Shown here: in pieces, positions 6,565-26,090 of the stretch
Layout: the number at the start of each line of letters is the position of its first letter
Position numbering within the stretch: position 1 is the first letter of the stretch
Source of the DNA: a virus
Virus record (IMG/VR): IMGVR_UViG_3300017773_000061
Coordinates: 1-34,138 of that record
Length of the DNA: 34,138 bases
Strand: one strand, 5' to 3'
Translations under genes and position numbers: made by a program
The notes under the pieces: model-generated
Seen by the model: only the letters and a program-made list of their open reading frames with translations
Databases searched by the model: none
What the model was told of the DNA's origin: nothing

Positions 6565-8345
6565 GTGTAAGGTTTGTGCAACTGCATGACTACAATAGCC
6601 CTGCTATAGTAGAGAGCAAGAACAAGGATTGGATCGAATACGGAGACGATAACTCGTTTTATGAGTATCTGATCTCATTGTACCACAGCAGTCCTACGAA
6701 CAATGCGGCAGTTAAGGGTATTTCTGACTTGATCTTTGGTGGAGGGTTAGAGGTAGTCAAAGCGGATCGTCAATTGGATGGTTACTTGAGCTTCAAGAAG
6801 CTGTTTAGAGATGATTGTGTACGCAAATTGTGTATGGACTTCAAGATGCTTGGACAGGCATCGTTTCAAGTCATAAAGAGTAAGGATGGAAAGCGTTTTG
6901 TACAGGCAGAGCATTTCCCGATCTACACATTACGTCCCGAAAAGGCCAACGACAAGGGAGAGGTAGAGGCTTACTACTACCACCACAATTGGGCAGAGGC
7001 AACGCCAAGTGATACGCCTACAAGGATACCTGCTTTCGGATATGAGGGCAATGCAATGGTTGCTATGTACGTTATAAAGCCGTACAGCACAGGTAACGAT
7101 TACTTTAATCCTGTGGACTATCAAGGTGGTTTGCAGTATGCTGAGATGGAGAGTGAGATAGCGAACTATCACTTGAACAACATTAAAAATTCGCTTTTGC
7201 CTACGATGATGGTGAATTTCAATAATGGGATTCCCGATGAGCGTAAGCAACAGCAGATAGAGAGTAAACTGAAGCAGAAATTTAGTGGATCAAGCAATGC
7301 AGGTCGCTTCATTTTAGCCTTTAATGATGATAAGGACAGCCAAGCATCCATCGAGCCTATTCAGCTAAGTGATGCGCACAATCAGTACAGCTTTTTGAGC
7401 AATGAGTGTATGTCTAAGATCATGGTGAGCCATAGGGTAACGAGTCCTATGCTATTAGGTATAAAGGATCAGACAGGATTAGGTAATAATGCAGATGAGC
7501 TAAGAACAGCGAGTGTGTTATTCGACAATACGGTGATCAGACCTATGCAAAACGCTATTATAGAGGCTGTTAAGGATGTATTGCACTACAATGGGTACTC
7601 GTTAGACTTGTATTTCAAGACATTACAGCCCCTTGAATTCGTGGATCTTAGTGGTAAGATGCTTGACGATGAGACAAGAGAGAAAGAAACAGGTGTAGAG
7701 CTAAGTGAGCAAGGTGATGCTAAGAATAAGGCATTACAGGATATGACTGATGAGGACGAATCTCATTGGCTTGAACATTTGAGTGAAATTGGCGAACAAA
7801 TGGATCTCGAAGAATGGGAATTGATGGATGAAGAGGAAGTTGACCCCGACACGGAGGACGAGAAGTATAACTTCTTCAAGCGATTTGCAAATCCTCAAGC
7901 TAAGTCTGACGATGATGCAGGAATATACAAGATCCGTTATCGTTATGCACCACTCAAGGCTTCTGATAACAGCAGAACGTTCTGCAAGAACATGGTTCAG
8001 AACGGAGAAAGAGGGGTAGTGTACCGCAGAGAGGATATTGAGAATATGGCAGGTAAAGTGAACACTGAATGGAGTCCAAAAGGCACAAGCACATATAGTA
8101 TATGGCGATTTAAAGGTGGTGCTTACTGCAAACACTATTGGGTGAGACAAGTATTTGTTCGTGCAAGAGATGGTAAGGGTAGGATCAAACCTGCATCGTC
8201 TACTAAGGATTTAGAAAACGATAAGAGAATAGCTGAAAGCGGTGCAAGAAGAGCAGGAGTGCCTAATACGAAATTTGAACCTAAAAAGTGGAAAGAGGCT
8301 CAACAACGTCCTACTGATATGCCCGATCAAGCAAAATTGAACTAA
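6561..8345 (+). CDS. Portal protein with C-terminal extra domain
   Basis: This 594-residue protein should form the dodecameric portal through which DNA enters and leaves the head. The first 360 residues have the portal look. They include an N-terminal segment with DDNSFYEYLISLYHSSPTNN, then an Ile/Phe-Gly-Gly-Gly turn (IFGGGLEV). Next come a wing region, a long helix with YHLNNIKNSLLPTMMVNFNN and the crown-side stretch MVSHRVTSPMLLGIKDQTGL. An acidic linker (about 370-445) leads to a separate domain at about 455-545. That domain carries SRTFCKNMV, YRREDIENM, TYSIWRFKGG and YCKHYWVRQ, so two Cys and a His may sit together. I have seen this domain on other head proteins but know no function. 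The gene lies downstream of the capsid gene and far from the terminase, against the usual order. Confidence 0.85.
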   Translation: MSVRFVQLHDYNSPAIVESKNKDWIEYGDDNSFYEYLISLYHSSPTNNAAVKGISDLIFGGGLEVVKADRQLDGYLSFKKLFRDDCVRKLCMDFKMLGQASFQVIKSKDGKRFVQAEHFPIYTLRPEKANDKGEVEAYYYHHNWAEATPSDTPTRIPAFGYEGNAMVAMYVIKPYSTGNDYFNPVDYQGGLQYAEMESEIANYHLNNIKNSLLPTMMVNFNNGIPDERKQQQIESKLKQKFSGSSNAGRFILAFNDDKDSQASIEPIQLSDAHNQYSFLSNECMSKIMVSHRVTSPMLLGIKDQTGLGNNADELRTASVLFDNTVIRPMQNAIIEAVKDVLHYNGYSLDLYFKTLQPLEFVDLSGKMLDDETREKETGVELSEQGDAKNKALQDMTDEDESHWLEHLSEIGEQMDLEEWELMDEEEVDPDTEDEKYNFFKRFANPQAKSDDDAGIYKIRYRYAPLKASDNSRTFCKNMVQNGERGVVYRREDIENMAGKVNTEWSPKGTSTYSIWRFKGGAYCKHYWVRQVFVRARDGKGRIKPASSTKDLENDKRIAESGARRAGVPNTKFEPKKWKEAQQRPTDMPDQAKLN

Positions 8346-8346
8346 G

Positions 8347-8850
8347 ATGGCAGAAGTATTATTGTGTACGAGAGAGGATATAATGACTCGCACTTCATTG
8401 AGCGGGAACATTGATATGGACAAGATTACGCCCTTCATTAAGACAGCGCAAGACATCCATATTCAGAGTCTACTCGGCACGAAGCTATATGACAAGATCC
8501 TGTTGGACATTGATGAAGATGATTTGTCAGCGACCTATGAGAACCTTGTCATGGAGTATGTGAAACCTGTATTGATTCATTATTGTGTAGCAGATTTCTT
8601 AGCATTTCACGCATACAGCGTAGAGAATGGCGGAATCTACAAGCATACAAGTGATAGCGGTGAGGTTGTAAGCAAAGGCGAGGTGGATCGCTTAGTGCAG
8701 AAACAAAGAGACATAGGAGATCATTATAGAGACTTTTTGGTCAAGCATTTGAGCCTCAATAATGACCTATATGCAGAGTATAGCGACTATCAAGCTGAAG
8801 GGATGTATCCTTCGGGCAGTTTAAATGGATTTACAGGATGGGTATTATAA
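8347..8850 (+). CDS. Head-tail connector-like protein
   Basis: This 167-residue, mainly helical acidic protein starts one base after the portal stop. A leading LLCTREDIMTRTSLSGNID, a helix FIKTAQDIHIQSLLGTKLYDKIL and a middle segment YVKPVLIHYCVADFLAFHA give the four-helix layout typical of gp6-like connectors, which cap the portal and receive the tail. Position right behind the portal supports this. Family-level homology is inferred, not tested. Confidence 0.68.
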   Translation: MAEVLLCTREDIMTRTSLSGNIDMDKITPFIKTAQDIHIQSLLGTKLYDKILLDIDEDDLSATYENLVMEYVKPVLIHYCVADFLAFHAYSVENGGIYKHTSDSGEVVSKGEVDRLVQKQRDIGDHYRDFLVKHLSLNNDLYAEYSDYQAEGMYPSGSLNGFTGWVL

Positions 8851-20395: not shown

Positions 20396-20911
20396 ATGGA
20401 AGAGATATTCGCACTGCACAAGGAATGGATTAAGATTGCAAAGTACGTTGGATGCCCATCGCACCTTGTAGATGATCTTGTACAGGATATGTATCTAAAA
20501 CTGCTAATAATCGAAGAGAAAGAAGGCAGTCTTGATCGTTTGTATCAGAACGACAAGCTAAACAAAGGCTATATTTTTGCGGTATTGAGTAATATGCACT
20601 CAATGTACAGGAGAAAACCAAGATCGGTTGAGTACATGGAGAGCGATACAGCAGATTCCAATTCAGAACTAATGGAAGAGAAGTTCGAGGTGCTAATGAG
20701 CAAAGTGGAAACCATGATGGGTAATATGCATTGGTATAACAGCAAATTGCTAAAGACCTATGTAGATGAGAATCATAGTATACGGAGTCTAAGCAAAGCG
20801 ACAAGGATCAGCGCACGAAGTGTACAGCATACCCTTGCAAAGACTCGTAATCAGATTAAAGACGAATGTAAAAAAGAGTATAATGAGTACAGGAAAGAAA
20901 AAAACATCTAA
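20396..20911 (+). CDS. Sigma-factor-like protein
   Basis: This 171-residue protein resembles minimal sigma-70-type factors. Residues of about 15-75 look like region 2 (SHLVDDLVQDMYLKLLIIEE, then YIFAVLSNMHSMYRRKPRSV). Residues of about 115-158 look like a region 4 HTH (SKLLKTYVDENHSIRSLSKA, then RISARSVQHTLAKTRNQIKD). Such phage factors redirect host RNA polymerase to late promoters. The first gene behind a near-leaderless promoter-like site suggests separate control. It overlaps the next gene by 29 bases. Alternative: a non-sigma HTH regulator. Confidence 0.7.
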   Translation: MEEIFALHKEWIKIAKYVGCPSHLVDDLVQDMYLKLLIIEEKEGSLDRLYQNDKLNKGYIFAVLSNMHSMYRRKPRSVEYMESDTADSNSELMEEKFEVLMSKVETMMGNMHWYNSKLLKTYVDENHSIRSLSKATRISARSVQHTLAKTRNQIKDECKKEYNEYRKEKNI

Positions 20912-21278
20912 GAAAAAGCCCATGAAAGGGTTAGGTGATGCGGTGGAGCGTGTTACTGAGGCCACAGGTATCAAAGCTGTTGTCAAGTTTATAGCAGGAG
21001 AAGATTGTGGGTGTGATGAGCGTAAAGAGCTTCTGAATCGCTTGATTCCGTTCAAAGGATCAGATCCAAATTGTATGTCTGAGGAAGAGCACACTTGGTG
21101 GACAGGATTTCAAGCAGGTGATGTAGAGTTTATGACGAATGCAGAAGCTCAGAAGGTGGCGCATATGCACAGCAGGATTTTCAATCATGAGTTGTATACG
21201 CCTTGCAAGTGTACACCTGCTAAATGGCAAAAAATGATAGATGACGTAAACGAAGTGTACAAGACGTATGGAGAATAG
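20883..21278 (+). CDS. Small Cys-containing protein conserved in Bacteroidota phages
   Basis: This 131-residue protein has a very basic start (KKKTSKKKPMKGLGDAVERV), then GIKAVVKFIAGEDCGCDERK, with a C-x-C pair, and later a Cys-rich C-terminal part (YTPCKCTPAKWQ). I recall similar proteins from Flavobacteriia phages (GLGD..., IAG-DCGCD-RK), with no known role. The frame extends upstream to 20820, but ATG 20883 is the better start. It overlaps the sigma-like gene by 29 bases and the ParB-like gene by 11. Confidence 0.7.
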   Translation: MSTGKKKTSKKKPMKGLGDAVERVTEATGIKAVVKFIAGEDCGCDERKELLNRLIPFKGSDPNCMSEEEHTWWTGFQAGDVEFMTNAEAQKVAHMHSRIFNHELYTPCKCTPAKWQKMIDDVNEVYKTYGE

Positions 21279-21921
21279 AGAAACAGGTCGGTATGAGCCG
21301 ATCTACATGGAGGTAAAAGACATAAAGCTGAATGATGTCAATCCAAGATACATTGAGGACGTTAAGTTCCGCAAGTTGGTACAAAGCATTAAGAAGTTTC
21401 CTAAGATGCTTGATATTCGCCCTATTGTGGTGGATGAAGATATGGTTGTTCTTGGGGGAAACATGAGATATCGTGCCTGTCTCGAAGCAGGGTTAGAGCG
21501 TGTACCTGTTATGCGTGTGTTGGATCTCACGGAGAAGCAGAAGCAAGAGTTCATAGTCAAAGACAACATTGCGTATGGTAAGTGGGATTGGGAGATGTTG
21601 GCCAATCAGTTCGATGCGTATCAGTTAGATGAATGGGCACTCGACATGGATCCGAGTATGTTCAACGTAGAGGGTGATGATGAGACAATGGATGAGGCAT
21701 TAGATACCACGAAGTTTAATGACTACACGATCTACTTTGCCAATGAAGCGCAGATGGATGTATGGTACTCCTTCTTGCGTAAGTTGAAAAACAAATTCGA
21801 GGACTATGACAATGTGAGCCAACGTGTTCTTGCGTATGTAGCTGAGGTGTATAACGATAATAACATGAAGGAGAGTGAATTGATACTCAAGTTCATTGAA
21901 TACGACATAGACGAGGAGTAA
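21268..21921 (+). CDS. ParB/Srx-fold protein, first copy
   Basis: This 217-residue protein's N-terminal 110 residues follow the ParB/sulfiredoxin-like pattern: IKLNDVNPRYIEDVKFRKLV, then DIRPIVVDEDMVVLGGNMRY with GGNMRYRA at 63-70, then VPVMRVLDLTEKQKQEFIVK and DNIAYGKWDWEML. The family binds or hydrolyses nucleotides; GGNMRYRA corresponds to the GERRxRA box of ParB. The C-terminal half is acidic and helical, with no recognised domain. Phage versions often lie beside DNA-modifying enzymes. Here the next gene, overlapping by one base (TAATG), is a PAPS-reductase-type protein, a pairing like IbrB/IbrA. A second ParB-type gene lies at 23821. Confidence 0.8.
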   Translation: MENRETGRYEPIYMEVKDIKLNDVNPRYIEDVKFRKLVQSIKKFPKMLDIRPIVVDEDMVVLGGNMRYRACLEAGLERVPVMRVLDLTEKQKQEFIVKDNIAYGKWDWEMLANQFDAYQLDEWALDMDPSMFNVEGDDETMDEALDTTKFNDYTIYFANEAQMDVWYSFLRKLKNKFEDYDNVSQRVLAYVAEVYNDNNMKESELILKFIEYDIDEE

Positions 21922-23048
21922 TGGCACGAAAAGAGGATCTGATATATGAGGATAGGAACGTCTACGAAGCGGCATTAGATCGCATCGATAGGGTTTACAA
22001 TTCGCATGATGAGGTATGGGTTAGTTATAGTGGAGGAAAGGATAGCCTGGTCTGCTTAAAGCTGATGGAAGAGTACCTTGACATGAAGGGATACAAAGAC
22101 AAGATAAACGTAATCTTCAGAGATGAAGAGGTCATAAATGGCGCAATACGTGATTTTGTATTATCGCAATATGATGATCCGAGATACAATTTTGTGTACT
22201 TGGCCACGCCATTGCAATCTGAGATCTACATATTGGGAGAGAAGCGTAAGTACGTTCAATGGGACGAGAAACGCAAGGGTAATTGGATCGTTCCGAAACC
22301 CGATGTAGCTGAGACTATGAAGGGTGTGATGAAGCAAGAGGAATTTGAGAAATACTTCTTTAAGAATAAGCGCAAGAGGATTGCATTGTGTATTGGAATA
22401 CGAGCGCAAGAGAGCCTGTTGAGATTTCAAGGAATCACGGCAAGTACAATACCATATCTAACGAAGAGTCCACTTGTCAAGAACGTATCTATGTTCAAAC
22501 CTGTGTACGATTGGAGTGAGAAGGACGTGTTCAAGTATTTCTACGATAAGGATATAGAGTATTGCAAGGTATATGACAACCAAGTGTTCAATAAAGATCC
22601 GTTACGAGTAGCTTCAGCTATTCACGCAGAGGCGGCCAAGCAGTTGCATAAGCTCAAGACCAATGATCCTGTGTTGTACAATCAGATCATGGAGGTATTT
22701 CCCGAAGTTGACGTACAGGCGAGATACTATAAGGACATGGTAAAGGGAAAGACTGATAAGATTGCATACGAGTACAAGGAGAAGGCAGGAGATGCGTGGG
22801 GAGCAATATACCTGTACATAAAAGAGAACATAACGGATGAGTATCAGTACAACCAAGCCATGCAAAAAGTAGCACAGGTGAGAAAGAGCCGTGCCAAGAA
22901 TGCAAAACCCGATGACCCGTTAGCAGGATTCCCTGCATTGTACGTTTTTGGCAAGATTATAGGCGGTGGTTACAAGAGATCAATTGTACCGACACCTGAT
23001 AGACACGAGAAATACTATGAGTATGAAGATATATCGAATAGATCATGA
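21921..23048 (+). CDS. PAPS-reductase-family (IbrA/DndC-like) protein
   Basis: This 375-residue protein has SGGKDS at 37-42, the PP-loop of adenine nucleotide alpha hydrolases, which activate substrates with ATP or handle adenylyl sulfate. The later block GIRAQESLLR (about 159-168) matches the G-x-R-A-x-E-S feature of IbrA-like proteins. A helix-rich C-terminal half follows (WSEKDVFKYFYDKDIEYCKV, KGKTDKIAYEYKEKAGD). Relatives include true PAPS reductases, IbrA (function unclear) and DndC, which starts DNA phosphorothioation. The DndD and DndE partners are absent. With its ParB-type neighbours the protein may modify DNA, RNA or a metabolite. It overlaps the ParB-type gene by one base and the GNAT-like gene by 26. 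Confidence 0.83.
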   Translation: MARKEDLIYEDRNVYEAALDRIDRVYNSHDEVWVSYSGGKDSLVCLKLMEEYLDMKGYKDKINVIFRDEEVINGAIRDFVLSQYDDPRYNFVYLATPLQSEIYILGEKRKYVQWDEKRKGNWIVPKPDVAETMKGVMKQEEFEKYFFKNKRKRIALCIGIRAQESLLRFQGITASTIPYLTKSPLVKNVSMFKPVYDWSEKDVFKYFYDKDIEYCKVYDNQVFNKDPLRVASAIHAEAAKQLHKLKTNDPVLYNQIMEVFPEVDVQARYYKDMVKGKTDKIAYEYKEKAGDAWGAIYLYIKENITDEYQYNQAMQKVAQVRKSRAKNAKPDDPLAGFPALYVFGKIIGGGYKRSIVPTPDRHEKYYEYEDISNRS

Positions 23049-23412
23049 TGAGGTATACGGGAGATTCCGTAGAGAATTAGTCAAGGAGCGAGTAGCAATT
23101 AAGAAACAAGATCCAAAGACACATTATGCCTGTGTGATGAATGGAATCCATCCTGTTGCAGTAGTAGGGTGGCAAGAGATCAAAGAAGGGCACATACGTT
23201 TCAAGACCGACTACGTTAGAGAGAATTTTCGTGGAAAAGGTTTATATTCAGCACTTTGGGACTATAGAATAAACCTTATCTTTAAGGAATATGATGTACA
23301 TACGATATCGGCTTACTGCACTGAGATGTCGCTACCGAAATACCTAAAAGAAAACTTCTTGGAAAGGGGAGTCAATCGTAATGGCATCACATATGTTAAG
23401 TATAATCCATAA
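23023..23412 (+). CDS. GNAT-like acetyltransferase
   Basis: This 129-residue protein starts with MKIYRIDHDEVYGRFRRELV and has HYACVMNGIHPVAVVGWQEI, a strand pair, and later the block VRENFRGKGLYSALWDYRIN. The R-x-x-G-K-G-LYS-LW pattern is the acetyl-CoA-binding motif A of GNAT transferases (RGKGLG). The rest (SLPKYLKENFLERGVNRNGI) matches the typical GNAT C-terminus. Its acceptor is unknown; with modification-type neighbours it could finish a base or protein modification. ATG 23017 is an alternative start, two codons upstream. Confidence 0.72.
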   Translation: MKIYRIDHDEVYGRFRRELVKERVAIKKQDPKTHYACVMNGIHPVAVVGWQEIKEGHIRFKTDYVRENFRGKGLYSALWDYRINLIFKEYDVHTISAYCTEMSLPKYLKENFLERGVNRNGITYVKYNP

Positions 23413-23420
23413 TCAAAAAG
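23411..23420 (+). promoter_or_regulatory. Leader element AATCAAAAAG before the HNH-like gene
   Basis: AATCAAAAAG lies 9 bases before ATG 23430 and is preceded by GTTAAGTATAATC (about 23395-23407), similar to the sequence around the -7 box of the class A promoters. No good -33 element is seen. It is probably a weak or ancestral promoter/leader. Confidence 0.4.
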
Positions 23421-23429
23421 TAAAACAGC

Positions 23430-23828
23430 ATGAAAAGTTACAAAAAGTGGTCAGCAGAATTCCGTAAGGCATCCTTAAAGCACACGCAACGCGCACAAAA
23501 GATGGGTTGGATCAAGTACCCAAAGCAATGCAACAGGTGTGGTCAGACTGAAGGCATAATCCATACGCATAATGAAGACTACGATGTTACATTTTACACG
23601 TTAGAAGATGTGTTCAATCGATTCCCGATCAGCATCGAACCCCATGAAATAGAAAAGCTCAAAAGCGTACTCGAACCATTGTGTTGGAGATGCCACATGA
23701 TGCACCACAGCAAACGCAGAAACCCCAAAGCCGTAGAAGGCTATTTCCAACAGGTACAAAACGGCAGACAATGGCCTCCTGTATATCGACACGATTTTGC
23801 AATACTAAGAAAAGACCACAATGTATAA
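23430..23828 (+). CDS. HNH-like zinc-binding protein
   Basis: This 132-residue basic protein has CNRCGQTEGIIHTHNEDYDV, a CxxC followed by an H-x-H-N-E-D-Y block, and then LEPLCWRCHMMHHSKRRNPK, a CxxC with HMMHH. This is the HNH/endonuclease VII-like zinc layout (C-x2-C ... H ... C-x2-C-H). The insertion between the blocks (YTLEDVFNRFPISIEPHEIE) is unusual. It could be a nicking or homing-type endonuclease, or a zinc-binding partner of the ParB/PAPS-reductase pair. A catalytic HNH core is plausible but not proven. It overlaps the next gene by 8 bases. Confidence 0.7.
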   Translation: MKSYKKWSAEFRKASLKHTQRAQKMGWIKYPKQCNRCGQTEGIIHTHNEDYDVTFYTLEDVFNRFPISIEPHEIEKLKSVLEPLCWRCHMMHHSKRRNPKAVEGYFQQVQNGRQWPPVYRHDFAILRKDHNV

Positions 23829-24339
23829 AGACGATCCGATCAGCCAAGTGCAATGGGTAAACGCTCATGATCTAAACGCTAACGAGTACAATCCGAACGT
23901 AGTGCTGAACCAAGAACTAAAACTTCTTGAGTTCAGTATTATGAAGAACGGGTGGATACAACCTGTACTCGTAGACAAGAACCTCATGATTATCGATGGG
24001 TATCACAGGAGTTTTTTGAGCAAGAACAGCAAACTGCTACAGGAGAAGTACGATGGCAAATGTCCTGTAGTTATGATGGATCTGACTGAACCCGAACGAA
24101 TGCTATTGACAATTAGGATCAATAGAGCTAAGGGTAATCACGTGGCAATCAAGATGCATGACATAGTGAAGAGCCTTATTGATGATCACGATTACAGCAG
24201 ACAGCAGATTATGGAGGGCATAGGTTGTACGAAAGATGAGATAGACCTATTGTACAAGGATGGAGTATTCGATGCGTTGAATATCAAAGAGCATAAGTAT
24301 AGCAAAGCATGGAGAAGTCCCAAACAAGGCAAGAAGTAG
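23821..24339 (+). CDS. ParB/Srx-fold protein, second copy (IbrB-like)
   Basis: This 172-residue protein has VQWVNAHDLNANEYNPNVVL to LLEFSIMKNGWIQPVLVDKN at the N-terminus. The box IIDGYHR at 57-63 and the motif RINRAKGNHVAIKMHDIVKS at about 99-118 follow. The DGYHR sequence resembles the DGQHR/DGHHR box of DndB- and IbrB-like proteins, closer to IbrB than the first copy at 21268. An HTH-like part at about 124-145 (DYSRQQIMEGIGCTKDEIDL) could bind DNA. The gene is separated from the PAPS-reductase gene by only two small genes, so the pair may work together. Confidence 0.8.
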   Translation: MYKDDPISQVQWVNAHDLNANEYNPNVVLNQELKLLEFSIMKNGWIQPVLVDKNLMIIDGYHRSFLSKNSKLLQEKYDGKCPVVMMDLTEPERMLLTIRINRAKGNHVAIKMHDIVKSLIDDHDYSRQQIMEGIGCTKDEIDLLYKDGVFDALNIKEHKYSKAWRSPKQGKK

Positions 24340-24561: not shown

Positions 24562-24924
24562 ATGAGCGACAAGAAGCAACAAAAACAACACCTTAAAAAA
24601 GAGCAGTTCTTAGAAGCTCTTGAAAAGAAGATGGGTATTGTGAGCCAAGCCTGTAAGAGCATAGGCATAGATCGCACGACACCATACAGGTGGGCTAAAG
24701 AGGACAGCGAATTTTCAGATGCAATGGATGAGGTGCAGAACATTGTATTGGACTTTGCGGAGAGTAAGCTGTATGAATTAGTGGATGACAAGAATCCGAC
24801 TTCAGTGATCTTTTTGCTCAAGACTAAGGGTAAGCATAGAGGATATGTAGAGCGTACTGAAATTACAGGTGCAGATGGTAAGGGACTTGATGTTAAGATA
24901 GAGGTATTGCGTAAAGAAGAATAA
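24562..24924 (+). CDS. Terminase small subunit
   Basis: This 120-residue protein has an N-terminal HTH (about 12-50: EQFLEALEKKMGIVSQACKS, then IDRTTPYRWAKEDSEFSDAM) that should bind the packaging start site. A helix follows (about 60-80), then a segment SVIFLLKTKGKHRGYVERTE, typical of small terminases in phages of this kind, and a Lys/Glu tail for contact with the large subunit. It is fused in expression with the large subunit by a one-base overlap (TAATG). The small terminase recognises viral DNA and stimulates the motor. Confidence 0.85.
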   Translation: MSDKKQQKQHLKKEQFLEALEKKMGIVSQACKSIGIDRTTPYRWAKEDSEFSDAMDEVQNIVLDFAESKLYELVDDKNPTSVIFLLKTKGKHRGYVERTEITGADGKGLDVKIEVLRKEE

Positions 24925-26090
24925 TGGCTGAGATAGCTTTACAAACGAATGTAGTTTTTGATCATATTGACCTTAGTGATAAGAGGTTCATTGTGGAGCA
25001 AGGAGGTACACGTTCGGGTAAGACGTACAATATCTTGATATGGATCATTTTCAAGTATTGCATGAGCAACAACAACAAGATCGTTACCATATGTCGTAAG
25101 CATGGCCCTTCGTTAAGAGGATCAGCTATGAGGGATTTCTTTGAGTTGTTGAACAAGTACAACATGTATAGCGAGATAAACCACAGCAAGAGTACGAATG
25201 AGTACAGGCTGAATGGTAATCTCGTAGAGTTCGTGAGTTTAGATGAGCCGCAGAAGATTAGAGGTCGTAAGAGACACCTGTTATTCATAAACGAAGGTAA
25301 TGAGCTTAGATACGAGGATTTCTTTCAGTTGAACATCCGTACCATTGAGAGGGTGATAGTTGATTACAACCCTTCTGACGAGTTCCATTGGCTATATGAT
25401 CAAGTAGTCGGTAGGGACGATTGTGATTTCCACATAACGACATATCGAGATAATCCGTTCCTTGACAAAAGCCTTGTTGCTGAGATTGAGAGACTCAAGG
25501 ATATTGATGAGACGTATTGGCGTGTATACGGAGAAGGTAAGAGAGCGCAGAACAAAGCTGTGATATTCAGATTCGACACAATAATGAAAGTGCCACCTCA
25601 TGCCAAGCTGATAAGCTACGGGCTTGACTTTGGGTATACGAATGACCCTACGTCATTGGTTGAGGTGTTTCAAGATGGAGATACGCTGTATTTCAATGAG
25701 CTGATATATGAGACAGGATTGACCAATGCGGGTATAGCGGAAAAGATGAGGATGTTTGACATTGATAGAGAGATACCTGTATGGGCTGATAGTGCAGAAC
25801 CAAAGGCTATCGATGAGATACACCGATGGGGATTCAACGTCAGACCAACGAGCAAGGGTAAGGATAGTGTCATGATGGGTATTGATATGCTAAGAAGGCA
25901 TAGGCTTGTATGGACTGATAACAGCACCAATGGTATAAAGGAAATGCGTAACTACAAGTGGGCAGAGGATAAGGATGGTAAGCTACTGAACAAACCTGTT
26001 GACCTGTTCAATCACGCCATTGATGCATTGAGATATGGTGTATGGATGGCCATGAAGAATCCAAACAGGGGTAGATACGCTCTTAGGTGA
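24924..26090 (+). CDS. Terminase large subunit
   Basis: This 388-residue packaging ATPase/nuclease has a Walker A at 27-34 (GGTRSGKT), an adjoining helix, and a Walker B-like segment at 119-127 (LLFINEGNE). The RNase H-like nuclease domain starts with YGLDFGYTNDPTSL near 232, where the Asp is a metal ligand; WADSAEPKAIDEI near 289 carries the second Asp. The closing helix has HAIDALRYGVWM near 362. All motifs needed for activity are present. At 388 residues it is on the short side for its family. A promoter for the next unit starts right at the stop codon. Confidence 0.92.
   Translation: MAEIALQTNVVFDHIDLSDKRFIVEQGGTRSGKTYNILIWIIFKYCMSNNNKIVTICRKHGPSLRGSAMRDFFELLNKYNMYSEINHSKSTNEYRLNGNLVEFVSLDEPQKIRGRKRHLLFINEGNELRYEDFFQLNIRTIERVIVDYNPSDEFHWLYDQVVGRDDCDFHITTYRDNPFLDKSLVAEIERLKDIDETYWRVYGEGKRAQNKAVIFRFDTIMKVPPHAKLISYGLDFGYTNDPTSLVEVFQDGDTLYFNELIYETGLTNAGIAEKMRMFDIDREIPVWADSAEPKAIDEIHRWGFNVRPTSKGKDSVMMGIDMLRRHRLVWTDNSTNGIKEMRNYKWAEDKDGKLLNKPVDLFNHAIDALRYGVWMAMKNPNRGRYALR

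Follow-up and report, generated by a model that had tools for sequence, protein, structure and literature searches.

An IbrA/IbrB gene cassette with an exchangeable acetyltransferase or methyltransferase: a candidate phage hypermodification module

The DNA considered here is the virus record IMGVR_UViG_3300017773_000061 of IMG/VR (34,138 bases, hereafter the window), and the system of interest is a run of five tightly packed genes on its plus strand. The first, ParB_A (21268–21921), encodes a protein of the ParB/Srx fold with the motif VLGGNMRYRA and a C-terminal extension. It is followed by IbrA (21921–23048), a PP-loop, PAPS-reductase-like ATP-pyrophosphatase and probable adenylyltransferase carrying SGGKDS and GIRAQES, by a GNAT acyltransferase (23023–23412) with RGKGLYS, by a predicted HNH (beta-beta-alpha metal) nuclease (23430–23828) with the pattern CxxC...HNEDY...CxxCHMMHH and a zinc-binding CxxC...CxxC arrangement, and by ParB_B, or IbrB (23821–24339), a second ParB/Srx-fold protein in which the DGxHR motif reads IIDGYHR. 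Successive genes are separated by −1, −26, +17, and −8 bp; the ATG at 23023 is the most probable start of the GNAT gene and gives the 26-bp overlap with the end of the PP-loop gene. The five open reading frames are real and correctly read, and the positions and motifs given for them in the initial annotation were confirmed.

ParB_A scores above the Pfam cut-off for ParB_N (PF02195, 2.5e-6; phrog_620, 2.4e-24) and contains the GxxR-type nucleotide-binding motif, as found in the ParB/Srx superfamily, which includes NTPase and nuclease members (PMC5512222) and, with SerK, a kinase. The PP-loop protein matches PAPS_reduct (PF01507, 1.9e-12) and phrog_2302 (4.9e-84). IbrB, which by itself falls below the Pfam cut-off (0.003), matches phrog_2159 (2.1e-63); its profile retrieves ParB/Noc chains and, weakly, SerK chains, and DG(Y/F)HR is present in 15 of 15 aligned IbrB sequences. 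A PP-loop protein of the phrog_2302/424 type and a partner of the phrog_2159 type thus share one operon, with only the GNAT and HNH genes between them, and the earlier identification of an IbrA/IbrB pair is borne out. The profile search that had been proposed for all five proteins was productive for ParB_N, PAPS_reduct, and phrog_2159, left the GNAT protein alone under its cut-off and returned no family match for the HNH protein.

As for the chemistry of IbrA, profile comparison places it closest to CysD (1e-10) and FAD synthase (4e-9), ahead of PAPS reductase (3e-7). Fold comparison of its AlphaFold model (predicted local distance difference test score, pLDDT, 88) ranks the PAPS domain of FAD synthase (Z 17.6), CysD (16.1), and FMN adenylyltransferase (15.3) before the PAPS and APS reductases (Z 14.9 downward), the C-terminal helical domain (about residues 270–375) being barely covered. 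The model therefore suggests that IbrA is nearest to AMP-transferring enzymes, with a margin over the reductases small enough to leave the fold alone undecisive. Greater weight falls on the cysteines: CxxC is absent from all 36 aligned IbrA rows and the CysH-type ECGxH motif is missing, and sulfur chemistry is disfavoured for this reason. The only widely conserved cysteine, C215 (30 of 36 rows), could still carry sulfur. Membership of the CysH family (PRK02090, 17.4 bits against a cut-off of 154) and of the DndC family (TIGR03183, 34 bits against 290.4) fails.

The GNAT protein taken alone lies just under the Pfam cut-off (PF00583, 0.0018), and 18 of 19 aligned members of its family match PF00583. 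The acetyl-CoA motif R-G-x-G is present as RGKGLY, and only generic GNAT families were matched. Its slot is interchangeable with a methyltransferase of a single family, phrog_11826, a Rossmann protein with the signature PxIHD...DLGxxTGLL...ARRxxPEL...EGR. The profile of this family comes closer to methyltransferases of the UbiG, ToxA, and protein-arginine types than to DNA methyltransferases, and none of its 21 sequences contains a DPPY/NPPY or PCQ motif; on both counts the enzyme appears suited to capping and not to classical DNA methylation. Each of the 18 phage records in which it was detected also carries IbrA/IbrB. The absence of DNA methylases noted in the initial annotation is correct as far as the window genes were scanned, but in sister cassettes this non-classical methyltransferase occupies the place of the GNAT gene. 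A further enzyme, a TauD/TfdA-type dioxygenase (PF02668, 1.3e-11), is encoded between IbrA and GNAT at positions 8092–8754 of locus L044, possibly as an extra tailoring step, as would be expected of a pathway that tailors its product in several steps.

The exchange between the two transferases was quantified across relatives. Profiles were built for ParB_A, IbrA, IbrB, GNAT, HNH, and the methyltransferase, and all loci were annotated with them; 60 loci of the clade were reduced to 50 non-redundant ones at 90% IbrA identity, 46 of which offered a full view. Within these 46, GNAT alone occurs in 25, the methyltransferase alone in 16, neither in 5, and both in none (Fisher p = 2e-8), while HNH is present in 37. 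Leaving aside the loci retrieved solely through the HNH query gives 22 with GNAT, 16 with the methyltransferase, 5 with neither, and again none with both (p = 8e-8; HNH in 34 of 43). Because related loci are not fully independent, the tree count weighs more than the Fisher value: mapped on the IbrA tree, the most parsimonious history has 10 changes of transferase, and at least 7 changes are forced by well-supported branches. Sister pairs with opposite enzymes are L031/L032, prophi79-1 (L006)/L033, L111/L052, and the Arthrobacter phages Salgado and Kovu (L004/L014), Salgado carrying the methyltransferase and Kovu the acetyltransferase. Moreover, each of the common gene orders, ParB_A-IbrA-X-HNH-IbrB, ParB_A-IbrA-IbrB-X-HNH, and ParB_A-IbrA-HNH-X-IbrB, exists in both versions (X being either transferase), and HNH adjoins X in 32 of 36 loci.

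In the 51 loci of other IbrA clades, no phrog_11826 methyltransferase and no HNH of these families was found within 1.5 kb. GNAT-like genes abut IbrA in 5 of these 51; four of the five were tested with Pfam, L058, L060, and L077 matching GNAT and L012 giving no match, and L058–L060 and L077 count as cases in which other clades, too, recruited a GNAT. Two enzymes with different donors that replace one another and never occur together fit the role of alternative caps for the same chemical group, and their linkage suggests that this group is the product of IbrA and its partners. The sulfur- or acyl-type modification originally proposed fares differently in its two halves: the acyl half is plausible, GNAT being a regular member that replaces the methyltransferase, and the sulfur or Dnd half is not upheld, given the DndC score, the missing CxxC and ECGxH motifs, and the AMP-transfer-like fold.

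For the fourth protein, a family search with the single sequence gave no match, the HNH profile found only a McrA-type HNH (E 0.51), and Foldseek alone on the model was uninformative. Residues H47, Y51, H89, and H93 are, however, invariant across 26 HNH sequences, and the AlphaFold model computed from 25 sequences (pLDDT 94) has a beta-beta-alpha arrangement. The top VIA-align match of the model is the Gme HNH nicking endonuclease 4h9d (Z 6.8, 2.6 Å, 82 of 90 residues), a modest value, though one far clear of the second-ranked entry (3.6) and consistent with the invariance of the histidines. The model thus indicates an HNH fold with catalytic- and metal-binding-type histidines, and nuclease activity is predicted. 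Two homologues, L048:4204–4797 and L050:1417–2013, have lost most of the zinc-binding cysteines and kept the catalytic-type histidines. The HNH gene lies on the opposite strand, still near the transferase and IbrB, in L006, L033, L037, L041, and L111, which comprise mycobacteriophage-type loci and one Pirellulales locus.

Across the 50,697 phage records searched by tblastn, IbrA relatives were present in 135 and IbrB relatives in 219. The close relatives came from searching viral contigs and prokaryote genomes with alignments and from scanning with the HNH protein; IbrA and GNAT, used as single-sequence queries on viral contigs, confirmed no relatives, and IbrA needed an alignment query. The survey covers the best 80 viral loci with sequence-based labels; the contigs are partial, and a gene missing from a fragment is no proof of absence. 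Five-gene sets of this kind occur in many phages that are not related to one another. In almost every locus of the clade, a ParB_A homologue precedes IbrA. The intact five-gene cassette, followed by the small and large terminase subunits (TerS and TerL), recurs in L018, L019, L020, L021, and L098–L102 at 47–83% identity per gene. All genes are under purifying selection in L100/L102, the sole pair with low synonymous divergence (dS; omega 0.014–0.109); the ratio of nonsynonymous to synonymous divergence between the window and its nearest relatives is saturated. Intact recurrence at such divergence, together with this selection, indicates that the cassette is not a chance assembly. The earlier view of a linked, uncharacterised gene set fitting a modification module is sustained, and the set does recur in other phages, where non-recurrence would have told against the proposal.

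In the window, TerS (24562–24924, plus strand; phrog_4044, 5e-9) and TerL (24924–26090, plus strand; PF04466, 1.1e-23) lie downstream of the cassette with one small open reading frame between; the gene order around TerS is conserved in L018–L022 and L098–L102. TerL was found in only part of the relative fragments, using three Pfam terminase families. ParB-IbrA-IbrB also lies 5′ of the terminase in Mycobacterium phage Gadjet and in Salgado and Kovu. It is a common phage layout, and the supposed rarity of two ParB proteins bracketing a PP-loop enzyme in front of the terminase was abandoned after this survey. Just 5′ of the cassette, at 20396–20911, a sigma-factor-like gene (phrog_1740, 1.7e-4) has similar counterparts upstream in L019, L021, L099, and L102 and could control late or cassette expression.

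Further relatives show other contexts. L104, a contig binned in an Epsilonproteobacteria metagenome-assembled genome (MAG), keeps the order IbrA-GNAT-HNH-IbrB with 66% IbrA identity, which hints at the range of hosts for this type of phage. In L103 (3577–4707, on a Desulfobacteraceae MAG contig) a single open reading frame matches both ParB_N and terminase large-subunit families; either IbrB and the terminase are fused there, or the gene is disrupted or misassembled. In Microbacterium phage Dewdrop (L010, record positions 90247–95409) an IbrA-like gene comes last in a series with three annotated glycosyltransferases, one acetyltransferase, and one methyltransferase, which puts this PP-loop family in another kind of modification-like setting.

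That the five genes form a conserved module is strongly supported, and we infer its substrate and its chemistry. Our tentative preference is for a hypermodification module of the phage, whose target is probably phage DNA itself or the nucleotide precursors of that DNA. IbrA would activate a position with ATP, allowing a nucleophile, probably an amine or hydroxyl group, to be installed; the ParB/Srx proteins may contribute NTP-dependent phosphotransfer, substrate handling, DNA targeting, or gating. The new group would then be capped, with acetyl by GNAT in the window phage or with methyl by the methyltransferase in its relatives, and the HNH protein may nick DNA of the host or of a rival that lacks the mark. 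A change of cap could alter the recognition of the mark by host enzymes that read modified DNA. DNA is favoured as the target because of the HNH protein, the location beside packaging and nucleotide-metabolism genes, and a predicted precedent: in jumbo phages, GNAT-family Mom domains are fused to nucleases and are predicted to protect phage DNA while attacking other DNA (PMC7824862). A more specific version, a mark-and-cut system for a so far unknown base or sugar modification, with the exchangeable cap as an arms-race adaptation to mark-reading host enzymes, is possible and considerably less assured.

Several points weigh against hypermodification of DNA. In the literature searched, which included few subscription papers, no report of modified DNA in carrier phages was found. 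The cluster B mycobacteriophage Gadjet has ParB-IbrA-IbrB with neither transferase nor HNH, and no HNH or transferase belonging to the module's families turned up farther away when its right end was scanned, which argues that the cap and the nuclease are dispensable add-ons. IbrA and IbrB were originally named as co-activators of prophage gene expression (PMC4541368; PMC8813620). Finally, the same pattern of exchange would arise if GNAT or the methyltransferase had a protein or a small molecule as its substrate.

One alternative is a counter-defence or nucleotide-pool role, in which free or signalling nucleotides would be modified, for instance disarming a host alarm or depriving host enzymes. 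In its favour, the enzymes nearest to IbrA in fold act on small molecules (FMN and sulfate are examples), ParB/Srx proteins have been described as NTPases (PMC5512222), and small-molecule enzymes are among those that the GNAT and methyltransferase profiles resemble. A conserved DNA-nuclease-like gene beside the transferase and the frequent adjacency to the terminase instead favour DNA, and we regard this role as unlikely. It is still less likely that IbrA and IbrB, in the role originally suggested for E. coli prophages, are a transcription co-activator pair for genes of the phage or its host, with the other genes as passengers. The historical annotation and the antirepressors found near IbrA/IbrB in some carriers agree with such a function, which nonetheless leaves unexplained the dedicated methyltransferase, the exclusive exchange with GNAT, and an HNH gene in 37 of the 46 full-view loci.

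A protein-modification module that seizes host machinery, with GNAT or the methyltransferase marking a host protein, recalls the phage GNAT Rac, which acts on host RNA polymerase (PMC7824862), and PRMT-type enzymes are among the methyltransferase profile matches; since it accounts neither for the HNH protein nor for the linkage of both acetyl- and methyltransferases to IbrA, it is improbable. Similarly improbable is a packaging accessory, with HNH as a partner of the terminase on the model of HK97-type phages and the remaining genes as local clutter. Terminase-associated HNH proteins such as HK97 gp74 are known, HNH proteins near terminases aid packaging, and in the window and its close relatives the HNH gene lies just 5′ of TerS/TerL. 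In Rhizobium phage vB_RleS_L338C, however, an HNH homologue (E 2e-24) stays with ParB, IbrA, and IbrB at 66–70 kb, a few genes from ribonucleotide reductase, whereas TerL lies at 1–3 kb, more than 60 kb from the module. At least in L338C, then, HNH follows the module rather than the terminase; this sets back a packaging-only reading, as does its direct adjacency to the transferase in most loci. DNA phosphorothioation of the Dnd/Ssp type, suggested by weak DndC and BrxP matches of the PP-loop protein, is highly improbable and was dropped on the DndC score and the missing cysteines (no CxxC, one clade-specific cysteine only), DndD/DndE and SspB/SspC being absent among the window genes scanned, which are part of the open reading frames of a possibly incomplete record.

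The repeated and exclusive exchange of acetyltransferase and methyltransferase provides strong genomic evidence that the two work on one and the same product of IbrA and its partners. IbrA/IbrB-like pairs occur in more than 100 sequenced phages, and annotation still calls them sulfur reductases or transcription co-activators; no mechanistic study of them and no description of the extended module were found in the literature searched, most subscription journals being outside its reach. While ParB-IbrA-IbrB beside the terminase is already common, the larger module with HNH and an exchangeable GNAT or methyltransferase thus appears undescribed. If the proposal is true, Salgado and Kovu should differ by methyl versus acetyl on the same target.

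Among known systems, the cassette resembles the IbrA/IbrB prophage pair (phrog_2302/phrog_2159), with which it shares the PP-loop protein and the DGxHR ParB-type partner in one operon; the window set extends this pair to five genes by adding a second ParB, HNH, and GNAT or a methyltransferase. It resembles the Dnd, Ssp, and BREX-4 phosphorothioation systems (DndC, DndB) in combining a PP-loop ATPase with a ParB-superfamily protein, but it lacks DndC-type cysteines, scores far under the DndC cut-off, and has GNAT or a methyltransferase instead. Mom-type, GNAT-dependent acylation of phage DNA likewise places a GNAT beside a nuclease, fitting a mark-and-cut pair, whereas the GNAT of the window is generic, occurs together with a PP-loop enzyme and ParB proteins, and can be replaced by a methyltransferase. 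HNH proteins of the HK97 gp74 type share the fold and the proximity to the terminase; the cassette HNH, in contrast, remains tied to IbrA/IbrB and the transferase where the terminase is distant. GmrSD-type ParB-plus-HNH type IV restriction combines the same two folds, ParB/Srx and HNH, while in the cassette these are encoded by separate, phage-borne genes accompanied by modification-type enzymes.

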